64,000 bases of DNA, taken from contig NZ_CAAHFG010000002.1 of assembly GCF_900890425.1 (NCBI RefSeq), forward strand, positions 744,001 to 808,000, in the 5' to 3' direction. The position numbers were made by a program, and so were the translations under genes. The stretch is from Pontiella desulfatans. Lineage in GTDB: Bacteria; Verrucomicrobiota; Kiritimatiellia; Kiritimatiellales; Pontiellaceae. Numbering within the stretch: the first letter of the stretch is position 1; every line of letters starts with the position of its first letter. The notes under the pieces are model-generated. The model saw only the letters and a list, made by a program, of their open reading frames with translations, searched no databases and was not told where the DNA came from. Below are positions 4,331 through 11,465 of the stretch, one piece after another.

Positions 4331-5342
4331 AGGGGTATTCACTTCGCTGGACTAAGTCTGTATCTTGTGGTTTCTTCCCCTGACCGACAGGGATATTTCC
4401 TTGAACCGAACGGGTTCCATAGCGACTGCATTTTGTAGCAGACGGTAAAGCAGCATTCCCCGCGAGCGGGAAGTGCGCCGGTTGAAGCGGAACGTGTATT
4501 CGTCGAGATAGTATGCCAAATGCTCGTGACTTACTGCGCCCTGATGTGTTCCGCCAAGCCACCGCTTAAGCAAACTGGCGACTCGATGGCAAAGGGGGAG
4601 CAGGTTCGCGCCAACATCCTCGGATTTCCGAACGACTTTATGGTCGTAGCCCAAAGCTCCCAAACCATTGTACCCCTTCCACCCGTCCGTCTTCACCTGC
4701 GTACCCGGATCAACCGTTTCTCGGATGGCCCCTTCAAGGCTTTTGGATGAGGCATCGGGTATTTTTACAAGGCGAATGCGACCGACGGCCTTACCATTCT
4801 CCTGCGCCACGATCAGCACAAGGGTCTTGCCTTCGGCTCCGCGCCCCCGTTTCCCGGGCCTTGTGCCGCCTATGAAGGTTTCATCCACCTGCACGGTTCC
4901 GGCCAGTCTTTCCCGTCCCGGACGTACCATCGCCCGGCGGAGCTTGTGCAGCCACGTCCATGCGGTCTTGTAGCTTCCGAGGCCGAGAACGCGCATCAGT
5001 CCCAAGGCGCTGGCTCCGTTCTTCTGGCTTGTCACCCACCAGATCGCCCTGAACCAGGACGCCAGCGGTTTGCGGGTGCCCTCAAAGATCGTACCCGAGG
5101 TTACAGATGTTTAACGACTGCACGTCTTGCACTTGAAAAGGCCGTCTGACAGTCGCCACGACTCCCCATGGCCACAGGCCGGGCAAAGGAAGCCGTTCGG
5201 CCATCGCAATGATGCAAGATAGTCGCGACATGCTTCTTCACTTGAAAAGTTCAGTTCCAATTCTTCCAGATCCTTTGGATACGCTTCCATGAAACGTGTG
5301 TACCACAACATGTGGGTCTAGTCCATCGAAGTGAATACCCCT
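4331..5342 (-). mobile_element. IS1595/ISXO2-type insertion sequence
   Basis: The element is 1,012 bp. Its ends are near-perfect inverted repeats: the left end reads AGGGGTATTCACTTCGCTGG and the right end is its complement with one mismatch, continuing for four more bases. A 10-bp direct repeat (ATTAATGAAT) flanks it at 4321-4330 and 5343-5352, which marks the insertion site. That is slightly longer than the 8 bp usual in this family. It carries one transposase gene, which is interrupted. It lies between the sulfatase tail relic and the start of the DUF1611 operon. Confidence 0.85.
4352..5311 (-). pseudogene. IS1595-family transposase with one in-frame stop
   Basis: Two halves lie in the same frame. 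The first (5311-5114) has the N-terminal zinc ribbon (WPNGFLCPACGHGESWRL, FKCKTCSR). An ochre TAA at 5111-5113 then interrupts it. The frame continues as TSVTSGTIFEGTRKPLASW and the DDE-type core (VQVDETFIGG, VKTDGWKGYNG) to the stop at 4352. The family normally has Gln at the interrupted place (CSRQTS), so a single CAA-to-TAA change explains it. No base is lost or gained. The copy should be inactive unless the stop is read through or a related transposase acts in trans. Confidence 0.85.
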
Positions 5343-5493: not shown

Positions 5494-6609
5494 ATGTCTA
5501 TTCCAGATCTATCTATTATTTCCCAGCACCCAACCGCGGTGGTCTATTGCGAAGCCAACTTTGGCCGCATGGACGGCAAAACCGCCAACGGTCTGGTTCG
5601 CTATTCCGAAAAATATAAAATACTCTCGGTCATTGACAGCACCAAAGCGGGACACGATTCGGGCACATTGCTGGATGAAAAAGAAAACGGCATTCCGATC
5701 TGCCGCAGTCTTTCTGCATCCCTTGAGCTTGCCGAAGGCGTGCCGGACTATTTCATTTTCGGTATGGCGCCCTCCAGCGGCATGCTGTCGCCCGTCGAAC
5801 GAAGCATCGTGCTGGAAGCCCTGGGACTGGGGATGAATATCGTGAACGGCCTGCATGAATTTTTAAACGACGACCCTGAGTTTGCGATGGCGGCTAAGGC
5901 GGGAAACGTTAAGATTATTGACATTCGACGGCCCCGTGCAAAGAAAGACCTGCGGATGTTTAGCGGCAGGATTTCCAAGGTCACCTGTCCGCGCATTGCC
6001 GTTCTCGGCACCGACGGTGCCATCGGGAAGCGTACAACGGCAACCATTCTCGTCCGTGCCCTGAATGAGCGCGGCATCAAGACGGTATTGGTGGGAACCG
6101 GCCAGACGGGGCTGATTCAAGGTGCTCGGTACGGCGTGGCAGTTGATGCCATCCCTTGCCAGTTTTGCTCCGGCGAACTGGAGTCTACCATCGTTGAAGC
6201 TTTCGAAAGTGAGCAGCCTGATGTCGTTATCATTGAAGGGCAGGGGGCGCTCAGCCACCCGGCCTATCTGACTTCGGCCTACATTCTCCGCGGCAGCATG
6301 GCAAATGGAGTAGTGGTGCAGCACGCGCCGGCCCGGACCCATCTCGGCGACTTTCCCGACACGCCGATGCCCACCGCGACTTCCGAAATCAATCTGATTG
6401 AAACCTTTGGCCGTACGAAAGTCATCGGCCTGACGATCAACCACGAGAATATGACGGACGATGAAGTCAGCGCGGCAATCAAGGCCTATGAGAAAGAACT
6501 CGGCATCCCCGCCACCGATGCGCTGACCCGTTCACCCGACCGGCTAGTCGATATGGTTGTAGAGGCTTTTCCTGTTCTTGTGGAAAAGCTGAGTGCCTGC
6601 ACTATATGA
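5494..6609 (+). CDS. DUF1611 P-loop protein (DgcN-like)
   Basis: The protein has 371 residues. It shows the two-part architecture of DUF1611: a Rossmann-like N-terminal part (about residues 1-145) and a P-loop NTPase-like part with GTDGAIGKRTTA at about 171. After it come GTGQTGLIQGARYGVAVDAIP and VVIIEGQGALSHPAY, both conserved in the family. One characterised group, DgcN, N-acetylates D-glutamate, and others sit beside amino-acid racemases or epimerases. It is the first gene of a tightly coupled operon: its stop overlaps the start of the racemase-like gene (ATGA), which overlaps the YcaO start. A GAGG lies just upstream of the ATG. The substrate is unknown. Confidence 0.8.
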   Translation: MSIPDLSIISQHPTAVVYCEANFGRMDGKTANGLVRYSEKYKILSVIDSTKAGHDSGTLLDEKENGIPICRSLSASLELAEGVPDYFIFGMAPSSGMLSPVERSIVLEALGLGMNIVNGLHEFLNDDPEFAMAAKAGNVKIIDIRRPRAKKDLRMFSGRISKVTCPRIAVLGTDGAIGKRTTATILVRALNERGIKTVLVGTGQTGLIQGARYGVAVDAIPCQFCSGELESTIVEAFESEQPDVVIIEGQGALSHPAYLTSAYILRGSMANGVVVQHAPARTHLGDFPDTPMPTATSEINLIETFGRTKVIGLTINHENMTDDEVSAAIKAYEKELGIPATDALTRSPDRLVDMVVEAFPVLVEKLSACTI

Positions 6610-7739
6610 TTGCGCCGCGATTAGAGATCGACCTCGAAAAAATTAAAGTTAACGCCCGCACCTTAGTCAAACGATTGGCTCTTCAAGGTATTTCGGTTAC
6701 AGCCGTGATGAAAGCCACACTCGGAGCCCCTGAGATTGCAAATGCGTTGCGTCAGGCTGGTGTGAAGACCCTGGGTGACGCCCGCATTGAAAATATTGTC
6801 AAGATGCGCCATCGCGGCGTACCTGGTCCCATGGCCATGATTCGCTCCCCGATGATCAGTCAGGCGGCGCGGGTCGTGAAATATGCCGAACTGAGTTTTA
6901 ATACGGAACTCGAGGTCATCCGCATGCTTTCGGCCGCAGCGCAAATAGCCAAGCGGATGCATGGAATTGTGCTGATGGTTGAACTGGGCGATCTGCGCGA
7001 AGGCATTTTGCCGAAGGATCTCCACGGCATGGTGCGTGAGATTCTTCGCTTGCCGAATATTGCGCTCAAGGGCATTGGAACCAATCTGGCCTGTCGCAGC
7101 GGCGTATCGCCCGATGCGGTGAATATGCGCGAACTCTCCGCTCTCGCGGACTCAATCGAATCCACCTTCGGATTCCCATTGGAAATTATTTCGGGAGGCA
7201 ACTCAGCCAATCTGGCCTGGGCGCTCAGCGGAGCGAACACCGGACGTATTAATAACCTGCGTCTGGGAGAATCCATTCTTCTCGGATGCGATCCGCTCCA
7301 GCGGCAACCGATCAGCGGCCTGCATACCGATGCCATTACCCTCGTGGCTGAGGTGATTGAATCAAAGGTAAAGCCGTCGCAACCCTGGGGAACCATCGCG
7401 CAAAACGCCTTCGGTGCGCCTTCAACTCCCAAAACACATGGCCACATCCAGCAGGCCATCCTTGCCATCGGCCGGCAGGATATCGATCCGTTGGGGCTTG
7501 AACCCCCGCAGGATGTTGAAATTCTTGAAGCCAGCAGCGACCATCTGGTGGTCAAAACCGGCCGCTATGCTTATCCCGTAGGCTCCGAGATTGCGTTTCG
7601 GTTAAACTACAGTGCACTGCTCCGGGCCATGACCTCGCCTTTTGTTTCCAAGCTTTGGGTAAACCGTACGCCCATCCTGCAGTCCCCGCCTACTCTCACG
7701 AAAAAGCCCCGCCTCGTTTCCAGCCTTCAGGAGAAATAA
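6606..7739 (+). CDS. Alanine/ornithine racemase-family PLP enzyme
   Basis: The protein has 377 residues and starts inside the stop codon of the DUF1611 gene. It has the N-terminal PLP barrel of the alanine racemase fold. The Schiff-base lysine is in VTAVMKATLG (about residue 37), and ISGGNSANLAWAL (about 197) is the phosphate-cradle region. It resembles the alanine/ornithine racemase group rather than the biosynthetic Alr: RLGESILLGCDP is typical, and the C-terminal domain is short. It probably interconverts L- and D-forms of an amino acid or related compound. Pairing with a DUF1611 protein suggests the product is acylated or ligated by its neighbour, which is inference. Confidence 0.75.
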   Translation: MIAPRLEIDLEKIKVNARTLVKRLALQGISVTAVMKATLGAPEIANALRQAGVKTLGDARIENIVKMRHRGVPGPMAMIRSPMISQAARVVKYAELSFNTELEVIRMLSAAAQIAKRMHGIVLMVELGDLREGILPKDLHGMVREILRLPNIALKGIGTNLACRSGVSPDAVNMRELSALADSIESTFGFPLEIISGGNSANLAWALSGANTGRINNLRLGESILLGCDPLQRQPISGLHTDAITLVAEVIESKVKPSQPWGTIAQNAFGAPSTPKTHGHIQQAILAIGRQDIDPLGLEPPQDVEILEASSDHLVVKTGRYAYPVGSEIAFRLNYSALLRAMTSPFVSKLWVNRTPILQSPPTLTKKPRLVSSLQEK

Positions 7740-9499
7740 TGCCCACCAAAACACATATCCCCGGCAAAGACGCCGCGTTAGAAGATACCCTTGAAAAAGC
7801 GAGGGCGTTGCTGGACCAACACGGTTTTCCCGTCGATCTGGTTTCTAGCAAGCATCCAGTACAAAACTGCTGGTCGGTGCACCTGCGTTCGTCCGAGTGC
7901 CCGCAGGTCTACACCAATGGGAAAGGAAGCTCCGAATTAGCCAGCGAGGCCAGCGCAGTCCTTGAATTTTTTGAACGCCTTTCTACGAACCTTTTCTTCT
8001 TCGATTATTACCTCGGGGACGATGCCGCCGAAAAGGACTTCGTGTTCTACCCGACCGAAAAATGGTTTCCCATAGAAGCTCCGTCAACCATCCCGACCCA
8101 TCATCCCGATGGAACCGAGCTGCTCAACGCCACCCTCCGTTTGTTCTACAATTCTGCGGATGAACTGACTCCCGCCCAGCTGCTCGATAATAATACCGAC
8201 GATCCTGCCCGCGGAATTGCCGCCTTGCCCTTTGAGCACATCGGCACCGAAGAAACCGTCTATTTCCCCGTCAGCATTCTCACCAATCTCTATGTGAGCA
8301 ACGGCATGGCCGCCGGCAACACGCCCACCGAATGCCGCGCACAGGCGCTGGCCGAAATTCTGGAGCGGTACGTGAAAAACAATGTGATCGCCATGGGACT
8401 ATGCCTGCCCACCGTGCCGCAAAACATACTCGACCGTTATCCCCGCATACAAAAAGACATCGAAGAGCTCAAGGCACACGGCTTCCCTGTTCTGGTTAAA
8501 GACGCGTCCATGGGCGGTCAATTCCCGGTCATCTGCGTTTTGCTCATAAATCCTGAAAACGGCGGATGCTATGCCTCTTTCGGAGCAAGTTGCCGCTTTG
8601 AGGTCGCGCTCGAACGCACCGTCACCGAACTCCTGCAGGGAAGAAGTCTCGACCAGCTCGATATTTTCAACCGGCCATCGCACGACCTCGAGATCGTTGC
8701 CGACGAGCTGAACCTGGAAAGTCACTTCATCGACTCCGATGGACTTCTATCCTGGAAAATGTTCGGCGACCAACCCGACTTCGAATTCAACGACTGGAAT
8801 TTTGAGGGCAGCACCGCCGAGGAATACGACCATTTAAAAGCTATCGTCAGCAAATCAGGGCATAAAGCCTATTGCGCGGAATATCTGCATTGCGGCATCT
8901 ACACCTGCCGCATCATTATTCCCGGCATGTCGGATATCTATACGCCCGACGATCTGATCTGGAGCAATAAAAATGCCGGGGCCTCCCTGCGACCGCAGCT
9001 GCTCAAGCTGAATCAAATGTCCGTCGACGAATTAAACGTCTTCGCGAACCATCTAAGCGAACTCGGACTGAGTGATCTGCAACCCGTCTCCGACACCATC
9101 GGCGTCCTCTTCGAAGAAGGCACGGTGTGGCACACGTTGCGTATCGGCGAACTCAAAGGCATGCTCGCGCTCGCAACCGGGAATCTCGAAGAAGCCGCGC
9201 AGTGGTGCGGCTGGCTTCAGCACTTTGAGTTTAGTCCGCCTGCCCGGAAAAAACTGTACCGCGCCATTCATGAGTTGATCGACTTTGGATTGTCGGAAGA
9301 AGGAACCGACCGGTACGACGCATCGCTCAGCCTCTTTTTTGAAAAGAAGACCCTGGCTGATGCCAAAGAAATCGTTGCGGGAAAACAAACCTTTCACGGC
9401 CTGACCTTTTCCGGGCACTGGGAAAACATCTCTGCTAGTCATCAAACGCTGATCAGCATGTACCGTCGCCTTCATCCGCTCAAGGCAGTCTCTCTTTAG
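7739..9499 (+). CDS. ycaO: YcaO-domain protein (E. coli YcaO-like, full length)
   Basis: The protein has 586 residues, about the length of E. coli YcaO. It carries the ATP-binding YcaO core: SSELASEASAVLEFFERLST at about 62, TECRAQALAEILERYV at about 200, and FGASCRFEVALERTVTELLQ near 280. A helical C-terminal region follows. YcaO enzymes activate backbone amides with ATP; E. coli YcaO assists RimO in methylthiolating ribosomal protein S12. The start is fixed by AGGAGA upstream and a one-base overlap (TAATG) with the racemase-like gene. Co-transcription with racemase-like and DUF1611 genes is unexpected for a pure S12 role. The C-terminus lacks the Pro-rich tail of azoline-forming YcaOs. Confidence 0.85.
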   Translation: MPTKTHIPGKDAALEDTLEKARALLDQHGFPVDLVSSKHPVQNCWSVHLRSSECPQVYTNGKGSSELASEASAVLEFFERLSTNLFFFDYYLGDDAAEKDFVFYPTEKWFPIEAPSTIPTHHPDGTELLNATLRLFYNSADELTPAQLLDNNTDDPARGIAALPFEHIGTEETVYFPVSILTNLYVSNGMAAGNTPTECRAQALAEILERYVKNNVIAMGLCLPTVPQNILDRYPRIQKDIEELKAHGFPVLVKDASMGGQFPVICVLLINPENGGCYASFGASCRFEVALERTVTELLQGRSLDQLDIFNRPSHDLEIVADELNLESHFIDSDGLLSWKMFGDQPDFEFNDWNFEGSTAEEYDHLKAIVSKSGHKAYCAEYLHCGIYTCRIIIPGMSDIYTPDDLIWSNKNAGASLRPQLLKLNQMSVDELNVFANHLSELGLSDLQPVSDTIGVLFEEGTVWHTLRIGELKGMLALATGNLEEAAQWCGWLQHFEFSPPARKKLYRAIHELIDFGLSEEGTDRYDASLSLFFEKKTLADAKEIVAGKQTFHGLTFSGHWENISASHQTLISMYRRLHPLKAVSL

Positions 9500-9667
9500 T
9501 TCCTCTCTGTTCAGTAGAAGATTTGGCGGGATCGTGGTCGGGATTGGGGCGGGGGAGCTGGGCACCGATTTCCGCGAGATACTTTTCACGCCGCTCCTTC
9601 AACTCGGCGGTTTTTTCGGGCAACTGTTTTGAGAGGTCGTTGCGTTCACCCCGGGGAAGCTGTGTCA
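9480..9667 (-). pseudogene. C-terminal relic of a type I sulfatase
   Basis: The minus strand reads LTQLPRGERNDLSKQLPEKT, then AELKERREKYLAEIGAQLPRPNPDHDPAK, and ends at a TGA (9480-9482). This is the usual sulfatase C-terminal pattern, in which a 'NDL...PEK' helix is followed by a PNPDYDPAK tail. It has no start: it abuts the end of the AbiEii-like gene, and its 3' end overlaps the YcaO stop. It may be the 3' half of the sulfatase whose 5' half lies at 11482-11922, split by the AbiE insertion, or an unrelated copy. Confidence 0.65.
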
Positions 9668-10468
9668 GGGGCGGGAGAGAAGCGAAAGATAATGTTCGGC
9701 GGTCATGAGTTCGGCTTCCTTCGGTCGTTCGAGGAAGGGGTGCACATCGGCGGAGATTTTCAAATAATCAAGCTCCCTCACTTTGGCCTCCAGCAGGGAG
9801 CGCCAGTCTAGGGCATTGAAGGTGCCCGCTCCCTGGGTTTGGTCGAGGGCGTTTTGCAGCAGCACCATGTTGGGTTCCAGTGGTGGGCGCTTTCCGAGAT
9901 ACCAGAGCAGGTCATACCAGTCGCGGCCTTTTTGGTATTTGCGTGTGAGCAGTGCATGGGTTTTCCCGGCCATGAGCGAAGGCAGGCTGTGGTATTGGAG
10001 CGCAAAGACCAGATGCCGGTTGATGATGGTTTTTGTGCATTCGGCTCCGGCGGGGGGGCGGGTGTCGATCTTCAGCTTGATTGACAGCTTCTGGTCGGCC
10101 ATGGCCACCAGTCCGGTCTCCTTCAGGATGCCGCCAACCTTGATCCATGCCGCGTGGACGGTCTTGCGGTCGTTCCAGTTGATGGAAACATCGAAGCCCG
10201 CGAGCATCATGTCGTTCTTGAGCTTCTTCATCCATTTCAGCGGAAGATAGGCTTCGGGGTTTTCGAGGGAAAAATCGAGGTCTTCCGAAAAGCGGGGAAG
10301 GTTGAAGGCGAACCGCAACGCGGTTCCGCCAACGAAGGAGAGTGACAGGAAGGCTTCGCTTTCATGCAGGGAACGCAATGCGAAGGCCTGGAGATATTCC
10401 CGCAACACATTCAGCTTTTCGGCTGGACTGGTGGCCGATGCGGCGATCGCGATGGCTTGCTCCTTCAT
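9665..10468 (-). CDS. abiEii: AbiEii/AbiGii-family nucleotidyltransferase toxin
   Basis: The protein has 267 residues. The nucleotidyltransferase signature is visible as FVGGTALRF followed by RFSEDLDFSLEN, with the paired acidic residues (DLD). KYQKGRDWYDLLWYL in the C-terminal half is also typical of the AbiEii family. These toxins act on nucleotides or tRNA and are held in check by the AbiEi partner. The start overlaps the stop of the AbiEi gene (ATGA), giving the standard antitoxin-first order. The gene ends against a sulfatase tail relic. Confidence 0.85.
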   Translation of the reverse strand: MKEQAIAIAASATSPAEKLNVLREYLQAFALRSLHESEAFLSLSFVGGTALRFAFNLPRFSEDLDFSLENPEAYLPLKWMKKLKNDMMLAGFDVSINWNDRKTVHAAWIKVGGILKETGLVAMADQKLSIKLKIDTRPPAGAECTKTIINRHLVFALQYHSLPSLMAGKTHALLTRKYQKGRDWYDLLWYLGKRPPLEPNMVLLQNALDQTQGAGTFNALDWRSLLEAKVRELDYLKISADVHPFLERPKEAELMTAEHYLSLLSRP

Positions 10469-11106
10469 AGTTCCACTGTTCCTTCCTGTTCAGTCCGGGC
10501 GAGTTCATTCCAGAGTTCAACCGTCCGCAAAAGGCGCGGGGAGTTGAAGCGGTTGGCATATTCGGCCAACCGCTCCGGTTCGACGGCCTCAAAGTTTTGA
10601 AAGCGCATCTCCCGCATGCGATCCATGCTCCATGTGCCCCGGTTCAGGTGCCATAGATCCAGCAACGCTTTTTCCGGGGATGCCAACAGAATCTGTTCGT
10701 TGCCCAGTTTGACCGATTCATAGCCAAAGAAGGCGGGTTGTTTGATATTGAAATAGGCAAAGGTGCCGAAGGCGTTGTTGAACGTGCGCGGAACACGCGT
10801 GGCGATGGCGGTGTAGGTGGCGGTTTTTTCAGGAATCAAGCCGTAGAAGGAGAGAGCCCATTGCAGGCTGAGGTAGGACGGCGTATAGAGCCGATTGGAA
10901 AGCACGGCGGGATCAATCGCAATCCGCCGGTAGGGTTCGGCAATGGCATACATTCCACGTCTCAGGGGAATCAGTCGCCCTGCCTTGCGCCATTGGTACA
11001 ACCGCGAGCGTAGGGTTTCCCTGCTTTCTCCCGAAAGCTGGGCCACCATTGCAAAATCAAAGCAGCTTTGGTCTCCAACCATGAAAAGTAGATCATCAAA
11101 TCTCAT
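10465..11106 (-). CDS. abiEi: AbiEi-type antitoxin and autoregulator
   Basis: The protein has 213 residues with an N-terminal winged helix-turn-helix (SGESRETLRSRLYQWRKAGR) and the line LIPLRRGMYAIAEPY that marks AbiEi antitoxins. A C-terminal domain follows, with the typical SPEKALLDLW. AbiEi proteins neutralise AbiEii and repress their own promoter by binding inverted repeats. The start at 11106 is chosen because the protein homology begins there and longer in-frame extensions run through the promoter and repeats. No Shine-Dalgarno precedes it, and the predicted transcript begins at or just before the ATG. Confidence 0.85.
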   Translation of the reverse strand: MRFDDLLFMVGDQSCFDFAMVAQLSGESRETLRSRLYQWRKAGRLIPLRRGMYAIAEPYRRIAIDPAVLSNRLYTPSYLSLQWALSFYGLIPEKTATYTAIATRVPRTFNNAFGTFAYFNIKQPAFFGYESVKLGNEQILLASPEKALLDLWHLNRGTWSMDRMREMRFQNFEAVEPERLAEYANRFNSPRLLRTVELWNELARTEQEGTVEL

Positions 11107-11113
11107 ATCCGTT

Positions 11114-11141
11114 AATGTATGAAAACATACATCAATGTAAA
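11114..11141 (-). promoter_or_regulatory. AbiE promoter with palindromic operator
   Basis: On the minus strand TTTACA (11136-11141) and TACATT (11114-11119) are spaced by 16 bp and could be the -35 and -10 boxes. A 7-bp inverted repeat, ATGTATG-AAAA-CATACAT (11115-11132), fills the spacer and overlaps the -10. That is where an autorepressor would block polymerase. The implied start of transcription (about 11107) almost coincides with the start codon, so the mRNA may be leaderless. Confidence 0.55.
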
Positions 11142-11253
11142 TGAAAAAACGGGGCGGATTGGGGCGGCTACCGTAGCAGGTTTTTCGAGTGCTTTGGGTG
11201 TGAAGCCATCCAGGAGCTTGCGACAGAGAACCGGGCGATACGGAAAACGTACC

Positions 11254-11270
11254 GCAGGCCGCTGGCCTGC
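11254..11270. repeat. Copy of the 'GTACCGCAGGC' palindromic repeat
   Basis: The hairpin GCAGGCC-GCT-GGCCTGC is preceded by GTACC and followed by CCCG. The same frame recurs at 52549, 60503 and 60700 with GCAGGCG/CGCCTGC arms, so both sides of the stem change together. Confidence 0.65.
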
Positions 11271-11318
11271 CCCGTCGTTTGGCCATTCCAATGGGAAACA
11301 TCCTTGAGTTAGTGCCAT

Positions 11319-11465
11319 TAGAGCATTTCACAAATGAAATGCCGCAACCCGATGGCGGACCGGTTCCACCCGGTCTTCCGTTCGAGCGGGTTCTGTCGAG
11401 GTGACGCGAAGCGAGGCCACTGCCTCACCTCGACCATTACGGCATCTCAATTGTTCAATGCTCTA
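11319..11465. repeat. MITE-like palindromic element
   Basis: The ends are a perfect 9-bp inverted repeat: TAGAGCATT at 11319 and AATGCTCTA at 11457. Inside lies a second 10-bp inverted repeat, GTCGAGGTGA and TCACCTCGAC (about 11396-11436), and a GGTTCCACCC motif shared with repeats near 17 and 47 kb. It codes for nothing. With the hairpin at 11254 it fills the gap between the AbiE promoter and the sulfatase relic. Confidence 0.5.

Follow-up and report, generated by a model that had tools for sequence, protein, structure and literature searches.

The three closely joined genes at positions 5,494–9,499 of the window (the whole 64,000-nucleotide stretch analyzed here) probably represent two functional units: a D-amino-acid module of a DUF1611 protein and a racemase resembling ornithine racemase (Orr), and a YcaO protein acting as uL16 thioamide synthase that became co-transcribed with the module by a lineage-specific accident. 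The DUF1611–racemase pair is a strongly conserved, widespread two-gene unit that is apparently undescribed so far; our literature search found no paper describing DUF1611 together with racemases. YcaO joined the pair solely in Pontiellaceae, one small group of marine bacteria.

All three open reading frames lie on the plus strand. The DUF1611 gene (5,494–6,609) encodes 371 aa with a Rossmann-like N-terminal domain and a P-loop domain in a predicted DgcN-like fold, and belongs to an Orr-linked clade. It is followed by a PLP-dependent alanine/ornithine-racemase-like gene (6,606–7,739, 377 aa) and an Escherichia coli-type YcaO gene (7,739–9,499, 586 aa) with a YcaO_C domain. The original prediction of three coupled genes was borne out: an ATGA overlap (6,606–6,609) combines the racemase start codon ATG at 6,606 with the DUF1611 stop codon TGA at 6,607–6,609, and a TAATG overlap (7,737–7,741) combines the racemase stop codon TAA at 7,737–7,739 with the YcaO start codon ATG at 7,739. 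We infer from the sequence that the three genes share a transcript. On the minus strand, the operon is flanked by an IS1595-family transposase gene (4,352–5,035; PF12762, E = 6.6e-31), occupying the position of the prolyl-tRNA synthetase gene found upstream in three relatives (L017, L018 and L019), and by an AbiEii/AbiEi-like toxin–antitoxin pair (9,665–11,331; PF08843, E = 1e-21; PF13338, E = 4e-5, slightly below the Pfam cut-off). The latter sits where two of these relatives (L017 and L018) carry a DUF5698–DUF2179 gene; the DUF5698 gene had no match within the 64-kb window.

Across genomes, the first two genes travel together. A search seeded with the racemase placed DUF1611 immediately upstream in 51 of 55 loci, and the pairing spans at least seven phyla. 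When searching independently with DUF1611 in another order, the racemase directly followed the Orr-type DUF1611 gene in 30/30 cases, and a DUF1611-first search within the window's own phylum gave 4/4. Start and stop codons overlapped in 44 of the 46 scorable pairs (−4 in 38, −1 in six), and the sequences of the two proteins co-vary (Mantel r = 0.90). Adjacency in both searches and covariation uphold the earlier proposal of a D-amino-acid-type module. The suggested inspection of the next two genes after DUF1611 homologs thus had a split outcome: the racemase recurs, but YcaO was beside the pair in none of 48 non-Pontiellaceae loci. Flanks of the pair are otherwise diverse. Among 107 flanking proteins from 25 diverse loci, no families except M81/MlrC, Band-7/HflK and fatty-acid desaturase reached three hits, so the pair lacks a constant third partner, and the pathway context given by these neighbors is therefore thin. 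No aminomutase was among the flanking families recovered.

Both Pfam domains of the DUF1611 protein scored above the gathering threshold (PF07755, 224 bits versus 25, E = 1.6e-66; PF17396, 92 bits versus 22.6, E = 3.7e-26), and its AlphaFold model (pLDDT 88) matched the DUF1611 structure 2obn (TMq 0.83) and the DgcN structure 7xrj (TMq 0.68). With the DgcN equivalog model NF041892, it reached 164 bits against a curated cut-off of 480. In the DUF1611 tree, racemase-linked proteins, including that of the window, were monophyletic with 100/100 support, L037 and L038 having been tagged as Orr-linked through a weak match to a neighboring alanine racemase while belonging to the other clade. The Orr-linked branch stands apart from DgcN-like DUF1611 proteins adjoining dipeptide epimerases, and MR_MLE partners were found only beside the non-Orr clade. 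Many Rhodobacterales genomes carry both types, the Orr-linked at 57–63% and the DgcN-like at 28–34% identity.

The pair thus recalls DgcN–DgcA (D-glutamate N-acetyltransferase and N-acetyl-D-glutamate racemase), in which a DUF1611 enzyme is likewise encoded beside a racemase/epimerase, and shares with DgcN the fold and common invariant residues. It differs in the distinct clade of its DUF1611 protein, which can coexist with the DgcN-like type in one genome, and in its partner, a PF01168 PLP racemase with alanine-racemase fold, whereas the DgcA-type partner is an enolase-superfamily epimerase. The DUF1611–racemase pair is a new variation on the DgcN–DgcA kind, using a PLP racemase.

The racemase matched PF01168 with 89 bits (versus 24; E = 4e-25), and its structure model resembles the alanine racemase fold (TMq ~0.72), with lysine racemase 4dza also similar. 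Residues K36 (the putative PLP lysine), C163, R219 and S311-D312-H313 were invariant in 24 relatives. Taken together, the PF01168 barrel, putative PLP lysine and matching modeled fold identify it as a predicted alanine-racemase-like fold-III PLP enzyme. It belongs to the same subfamily as Orr of the clostridial D-ornithine (OraE/OraS) pathway, with 46–47% identity to an aminomutase-linked homolog (L091) and common invariant residues, but scored 357 bits against the curated cut-off of 480 of the Orr model NF040742, and its partner is DUF1611 rather than aminomutase genes. As both proteins fall below the thresholds of NF041892 and NF040742, their substrates may differ from those of both namesakes. 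Hints come from relatives. In L029, an arginase domain (Pfam arginase, E = 4e-60) is fused to the same racemase subfamily (41–47% identity); in L091, a D-ornithine aminomutase lies in one gene string with the racemase relative; and in L053, a gene for an ArgZ-like C-terminal domain follows the DUF1611–Orr pair. By analogy with this fusion and these neighbors, the racemase substrate is probably ornithine or a similar compound. Long frames in L029 and, similarly, in L030–L033 had raised the suspicion of a DUF1611–racemase fusion, which was discarded after the extra domain of L029 proved to be arginase.

The substrate, product and direction of the pair that we infer, like the YcaO activity proposed for Pontiella, are as follows. 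The pair would be a self-contained, mobile and horizontally spread D-amino-acid module in which the PLP racemase converts a free amino acid between its L and D forms, our best guess being ornithine or else another basic or small one. The DUF1611 enzyme, as a relative of DgcN, would acylate the D form and so pull racemization one way toward an N-acyl-D-amino acid. The module thus comes with a simple prediction, racemization followed by acylation of the D form, and its bearers range over at least seven phyla, among them many Rhodobacterales that can be cultured. If its function were assigned, a second DgcN-type route would be on record, and some of the marine D-amino-acid turnover could be accounted for.

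Alternatively, the pair might be catabolic and detoxifying, with scavenged D-amino acids being acylated, as by DgcN with D-glutamate, and L-amino acids recovered by the racemase. This reading is possible, if somewhat doubtful. It is consistent with the fold and invariant residues common to this DUF1611 protein and DgcN-type proteins, with genes for MlrC-like metallopeptidase, peptidase E, M19 dipeptidase and D-aminoacylase-like proteins close to some pairs or relatives, and with the description of dgcN as key gene of an irreversible racemization route (PMC12363236). However, catalysis by a PLP racemase requires the amino group to be free, which excludes the acylated product as a substrate, unlike what is said of DgcA, and the conserved unit contains no dedicated deacylase. 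A third role, production of an acetylated diamino acid as a compatible solute in marine or saline bacteria, appears unlikely. Many bearers of the pair are marine by name or source (Roseovarius, Roseibacillus, Marinicella and Pontiella), and N-delta-acetylornithine is a known osmolyte; yet osmoregulation genes were not recurrently linked to the pair and, to our knowledge, the acetylornithine osmolytes described so far come from other enzymes.

For the third gene, family assignment points to the ribosome. The protein matched PF02624 (198 bits) and PF18381 (126 bits) and exceeded the cut-off of the curated E. coli-type model NF040716 (‘YcaO_for_S12’; 721.7 bits versus 700). Aligned to E. coli YcaO (4q84; E = 3e-162), it showed ~50% identity over 503 positions. 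E. coli YcaO thioamidates the ribosomal protein uL16 at Met82 in vivo and in vitro, as reported in a 2026 paper, and a precursor peptide gene is not expected for this family (PMC13063428). Shared with the E. coli enzyme are the C-terminal domain, an acidic pI (4.9), the ATP-site residues (E76, E79, N194, E198, E206, E209, R210 and R293) and eight of 12 tested uL16-interface residues; S184 of E. coli YcaO corresponds to A191. The uL16 target loop RMGKGKG is intact in this genome but equally present in YcaO-less relatives and, being identical with or without YcaO, does not discriminate YcaO-bearing genomes. Judged by these similarities, the window's YcaO is most likely a uL16 thioamide synthase that would use ATP to activate the uL16 backbone amide and exchange its oxygen for sulfur. 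A difference from E. coli is that the Pontiellaceae protein, with its putative activity, is encoded as third gene behind a D-amino-acid module.

The DUF1611–racemase–YcaO order is retained in two other Pontiellaceae genomes at 75–85% protein identity and with differing flanks, so the triad is not a chance arrangement. Racemase and YcaO genes are similarly close there, with a 1-base gap in L017 and a 4-base overlap in L018. These junctions, and the persistence of the triad in three genomes, could suggest a single pathway: an unusual D-amino-acid product would arise from racemase and DUF1611, and YcaO would modify an amide of this product or of a peptide that carries it. We regard this as very unlikely. 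Besides the 48/48 non-Pontiellaceae loci with no adjacent YcaO, 25 of the 26 pair-bearing genomes searched whole lacked YcaO anywhere, the sole match being 40% identical and away from the pair. Conversely, close YcaO orthologs occur without the pair in three genomes (G308, G303 and G032), standing as a solo gene in the sister genome G308. A functional contribution of YcaO to the module, as first proposed, is thus not supported. The accompanying idea of RiPP-like modification of a peptide backbone amide fails on family scores, the protein falling within the ribosome-modifying E. coli YcaO family by the curated cut-off while reaching 37 of the 219 bits required by TOMM_cyclo_SagD.

Under the two-unit explanation, YcaO would have become the third cistron in an ancestor of a few Pontiellaceae species, with no required role in the D-amino-acid module. 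Selection for co-expression would also fit the tight coupling kept in three species with rearranged flanks. A far-reaching extension, which we consider decidedly improbable, is that marine bacteria of several phyla widely share a so far undescribed D-amino-acid pathway, DUF1611–Orr, in which racemization by the PLP enzyme is coupled to N-acylation. Its product, an N-acyl amino acid in the D configuration, would serve as a solute, a store or a component of the cell envelope, and Pontiellaceae would have placed the pathway under joint control with uL16 thioamidation, linking translation tuning to D-amino-acid metabolism.

That YcaO is an accessory factor for S12 beta-methylthiolation, as the name of the matched model NF040716 says, is extremely unlikely and was rejected because RimO is absent: no protein exceeded the TIGR01125 cut-off in four genomes (G000, G228, G248 and G289, triad genomes included), the two full-length MiaB/RimO-family enzymes of this genome are MiaB and MtaB, and in E. 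coli the YcaO substrate is uL16, while RimO is essential for S12 methylthiolation and acts on a peptide in vitro without YcaO (PMC13063428). Database labels thus still assign an enzyme of uL16 thioamidation to S12, in this case even where the genome has no RimO.

As minor observations on the surroundings of the pair and its relatives, an M81/MlrC metallopeptidase gene lies close to three pairs, and a D-aminoacylase-like amidohydrolase gene adjoins the racemase in L094, each a hint at D-peptides or deacylation.

The three overlapping genes described in the original prediction are borne out by the window sequence: a DUF1611 gene (P0001, 5494-6609, + strand), a racemase-like gene (P0002, 6606-7739, +) and ycaO (P0003, 7739-9499, +) are joined by ATGA and TAATG junctions, respectively, and a ribosome-binding-like AAGAGGA precedes the ATG of the first. 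The ycaO gene starts at ATG 7739; position 7655 of the ORF listing is merely the first in-frame TTG. The genome (8.66 Mb, six contigs) has its nearest named relatives in Pontiellaceae, Kiritimatiellota. Domain searches revealed both DUF1611 domains in P0001, which scored 164 bits against the curated model of the D-glutamate N-acetyltransferase DgcN, far under the cut-off of 480; its predicted model superposed on known structures, both of DUF1611 proteins and of DgcN (7xrj). P0002 contains an alanine-racemase barrel, with an alanine racemase-like fold in the predicted model, and its top curated match was ornithine racemase (357 bits, under the cut-off of 480). P0003 exceeded the cut-off for the E. 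coli YcaO family (721.7 versus 700 bits), carries the C-terminal YcaO_C domain and matched E. coli YcaO crystal structures.

The DUF1611 gene and the ornithine-racemase-like (Orr-like) gene form a genuine unit. A racemase-query scan covering genomes of 84,980 species yielded 55 loci, 51 of which carried DUF1611 immediately upstream on the same strand; of the remaining four, three were of Firmicutes type and one was a very weak match. Pair bearers include Kiritimatiellota, Verrucomicrobiota, Planctomycetota, Krumholzibacteriota, Thermodesulfobacteriota, Actinomycetota and Pseudomonadota. Among 46 scorable junctions, the genes overlapped by four bases in 38 and by one base in six, and pairwise identities of the two proteins were correlated across 48 loci (Mantel r = 0.90, p = 0.001), a figure to which shared ancestry of the genomes adds. 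Since these 55 loci had been found via the racemase, a reciprocal test was conducted from the DUF1611 side in 197 genomes of one alphaproteobacterial order. Here, DUF1611 proteins fell into two groups (57-63% versus about 28-34% identity), and the near group was followed by the racemase in 30/30 fetched loci. The same applied to 4/4 near-type genes in the window's phylum, whereas distant ones lacked this racemase. Near-type DUF1611 proteins constitute a single clade (support 100/100). Several distant DUF1611 genes adjoin an enolase-superfamily epimerase and some an alanine racemase; together with the Orr-like enzyme, DUF1611 thus recurs next to three kinds of racemase. The pair would represent a variant type among D-amino-acid modules that combine DUF1611 with a racemase. 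No prior description of it was found in the literature searched, and it is the part worth pursuing. At L035, L037 and L038, a canonical alanine racemase adjoins distant DUF1611, with an additional dipeptide-epimerase-like gene at L035.

Gene context of the pair and of racemase relatives provides weak hints about the substrate, several of them pointing to ornithine. In a genome of the window's phylum, an Orr-like domain is fused to an arginase domain (L029, 1501-3450), plausibly an arginine to D-ornithine enzyme; L030-L033 from the same phylum contain similar long frames (the arginase domain was tested in L029 only). A racemase homologue shares a gene string with D-ornithine aminomutase (L091), and an ArgZ-like C-terminal domain gene follows one pair (L053). 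Hints of D-peptide or deacylase chemistry are a D-aminoacylase-like amidohydrolase adjoining a racemase relative (L094) and M81/MlrC metallopeptidases near three pairs. Because PLP racemases require a free alpha-amine, the enzyme must act before acylation. On these chemical grounds, racemisation would precede acylation in the pair, the reverse of the reported order of DgcN followed by DgcA, the N-acetyl-D-glutamate racemase of the enolase superfamily.

The original prediction further proposed all three genes as one system, which is supported only in part. The pair association is conserved, but ycaO trails it in Pontiellaceae alone (the window plus L045 and L046), and a YcaO match was absent from 25/26 pair-bearing genomes of other lineages, the match in the remaining genome being distant (40%) and located elsewhere. 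Conversely, G308, G303 and G032 have YcaO orthologues (70-76% identity) unaccompanied by the pair, with ycaO standing alone in G308 and G032. A fourth genome (G289, L044) is ambiguous, because the frame, after an ATG and some eleven codons similar to the beginning of ycaO, breaks close to a contig end bearing transposase-adapter (Nextera-type) sequence (C471; L019, 1-300). Its ycaO loss may be an assembly artefact; its only YcaO match elsewhere is 40% identical. YcaO is therefore most likely a hitchhiker whose coupling to the pair is lineage-specific.

The flanks also differ. Relatives have a divergent prolyl-tRNA synthetase gene on the upstream side; in two of them, ycaO is followed by a gene for a DUF5698-DUF2179 membrane protein that overlaps or nearly touches it (L017, 11799-12374; L018, 2248-2820). 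The latter gene has no match in the window, where an IS1595 transposase lies upstream and a convergent AbiEii/AbiEi-like toxin-antitoxin pair directly downstream (9665-11331). The triad thus persisted despite changing flanks. This is compatible with some benefit of co-expression; a common pathway does not follow.

An older role of YcaO, in ribosomal protein S12 modification, is disfavored because it requires the methylthiolation enzyme RimO, absent over cut-off from all triad genomes; the two full-length MiaB/RimO-type candidates in the window's genome are MiaB and MtaB. Across the window's genus, RimO occurs patchily and independently of YcaO: G087 clearly has it, G050 has a fragmentary version, and most other genomes have no match over the cut-off. 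E. coli YcaO, an acidic protein, thioamidates Met82 of ribosomal protein uL16 and needs no nearby precursor peptide or TfuA-kind partner (PMC13063428, 2026). The window YcaO is likewise acidic (pI 4.9) and keeps 8/12 tested interface residues, and uL16 of the same genome has an RMGKGKG loop. Also kept, save one Ser-to-Ala change, are the tested residues assigned to the ATP site of the E. coli enzyme.

Two minor observations concern the pair. An isolated racemase fragment without DUF1611 in G290 (L023, 6325-6720; 83% identity over residues 229-361) is apparently a decaying copy. In most of 23 loci from two proteobacterial classes (Rhodobacteraceae and Woeseiaceae-type), a protein with an apparent signal sequence and repeated Cys-containing motifs is encoded directly upstream of the pair (for example, L076, 2359-3198; L058, 1227-2021).
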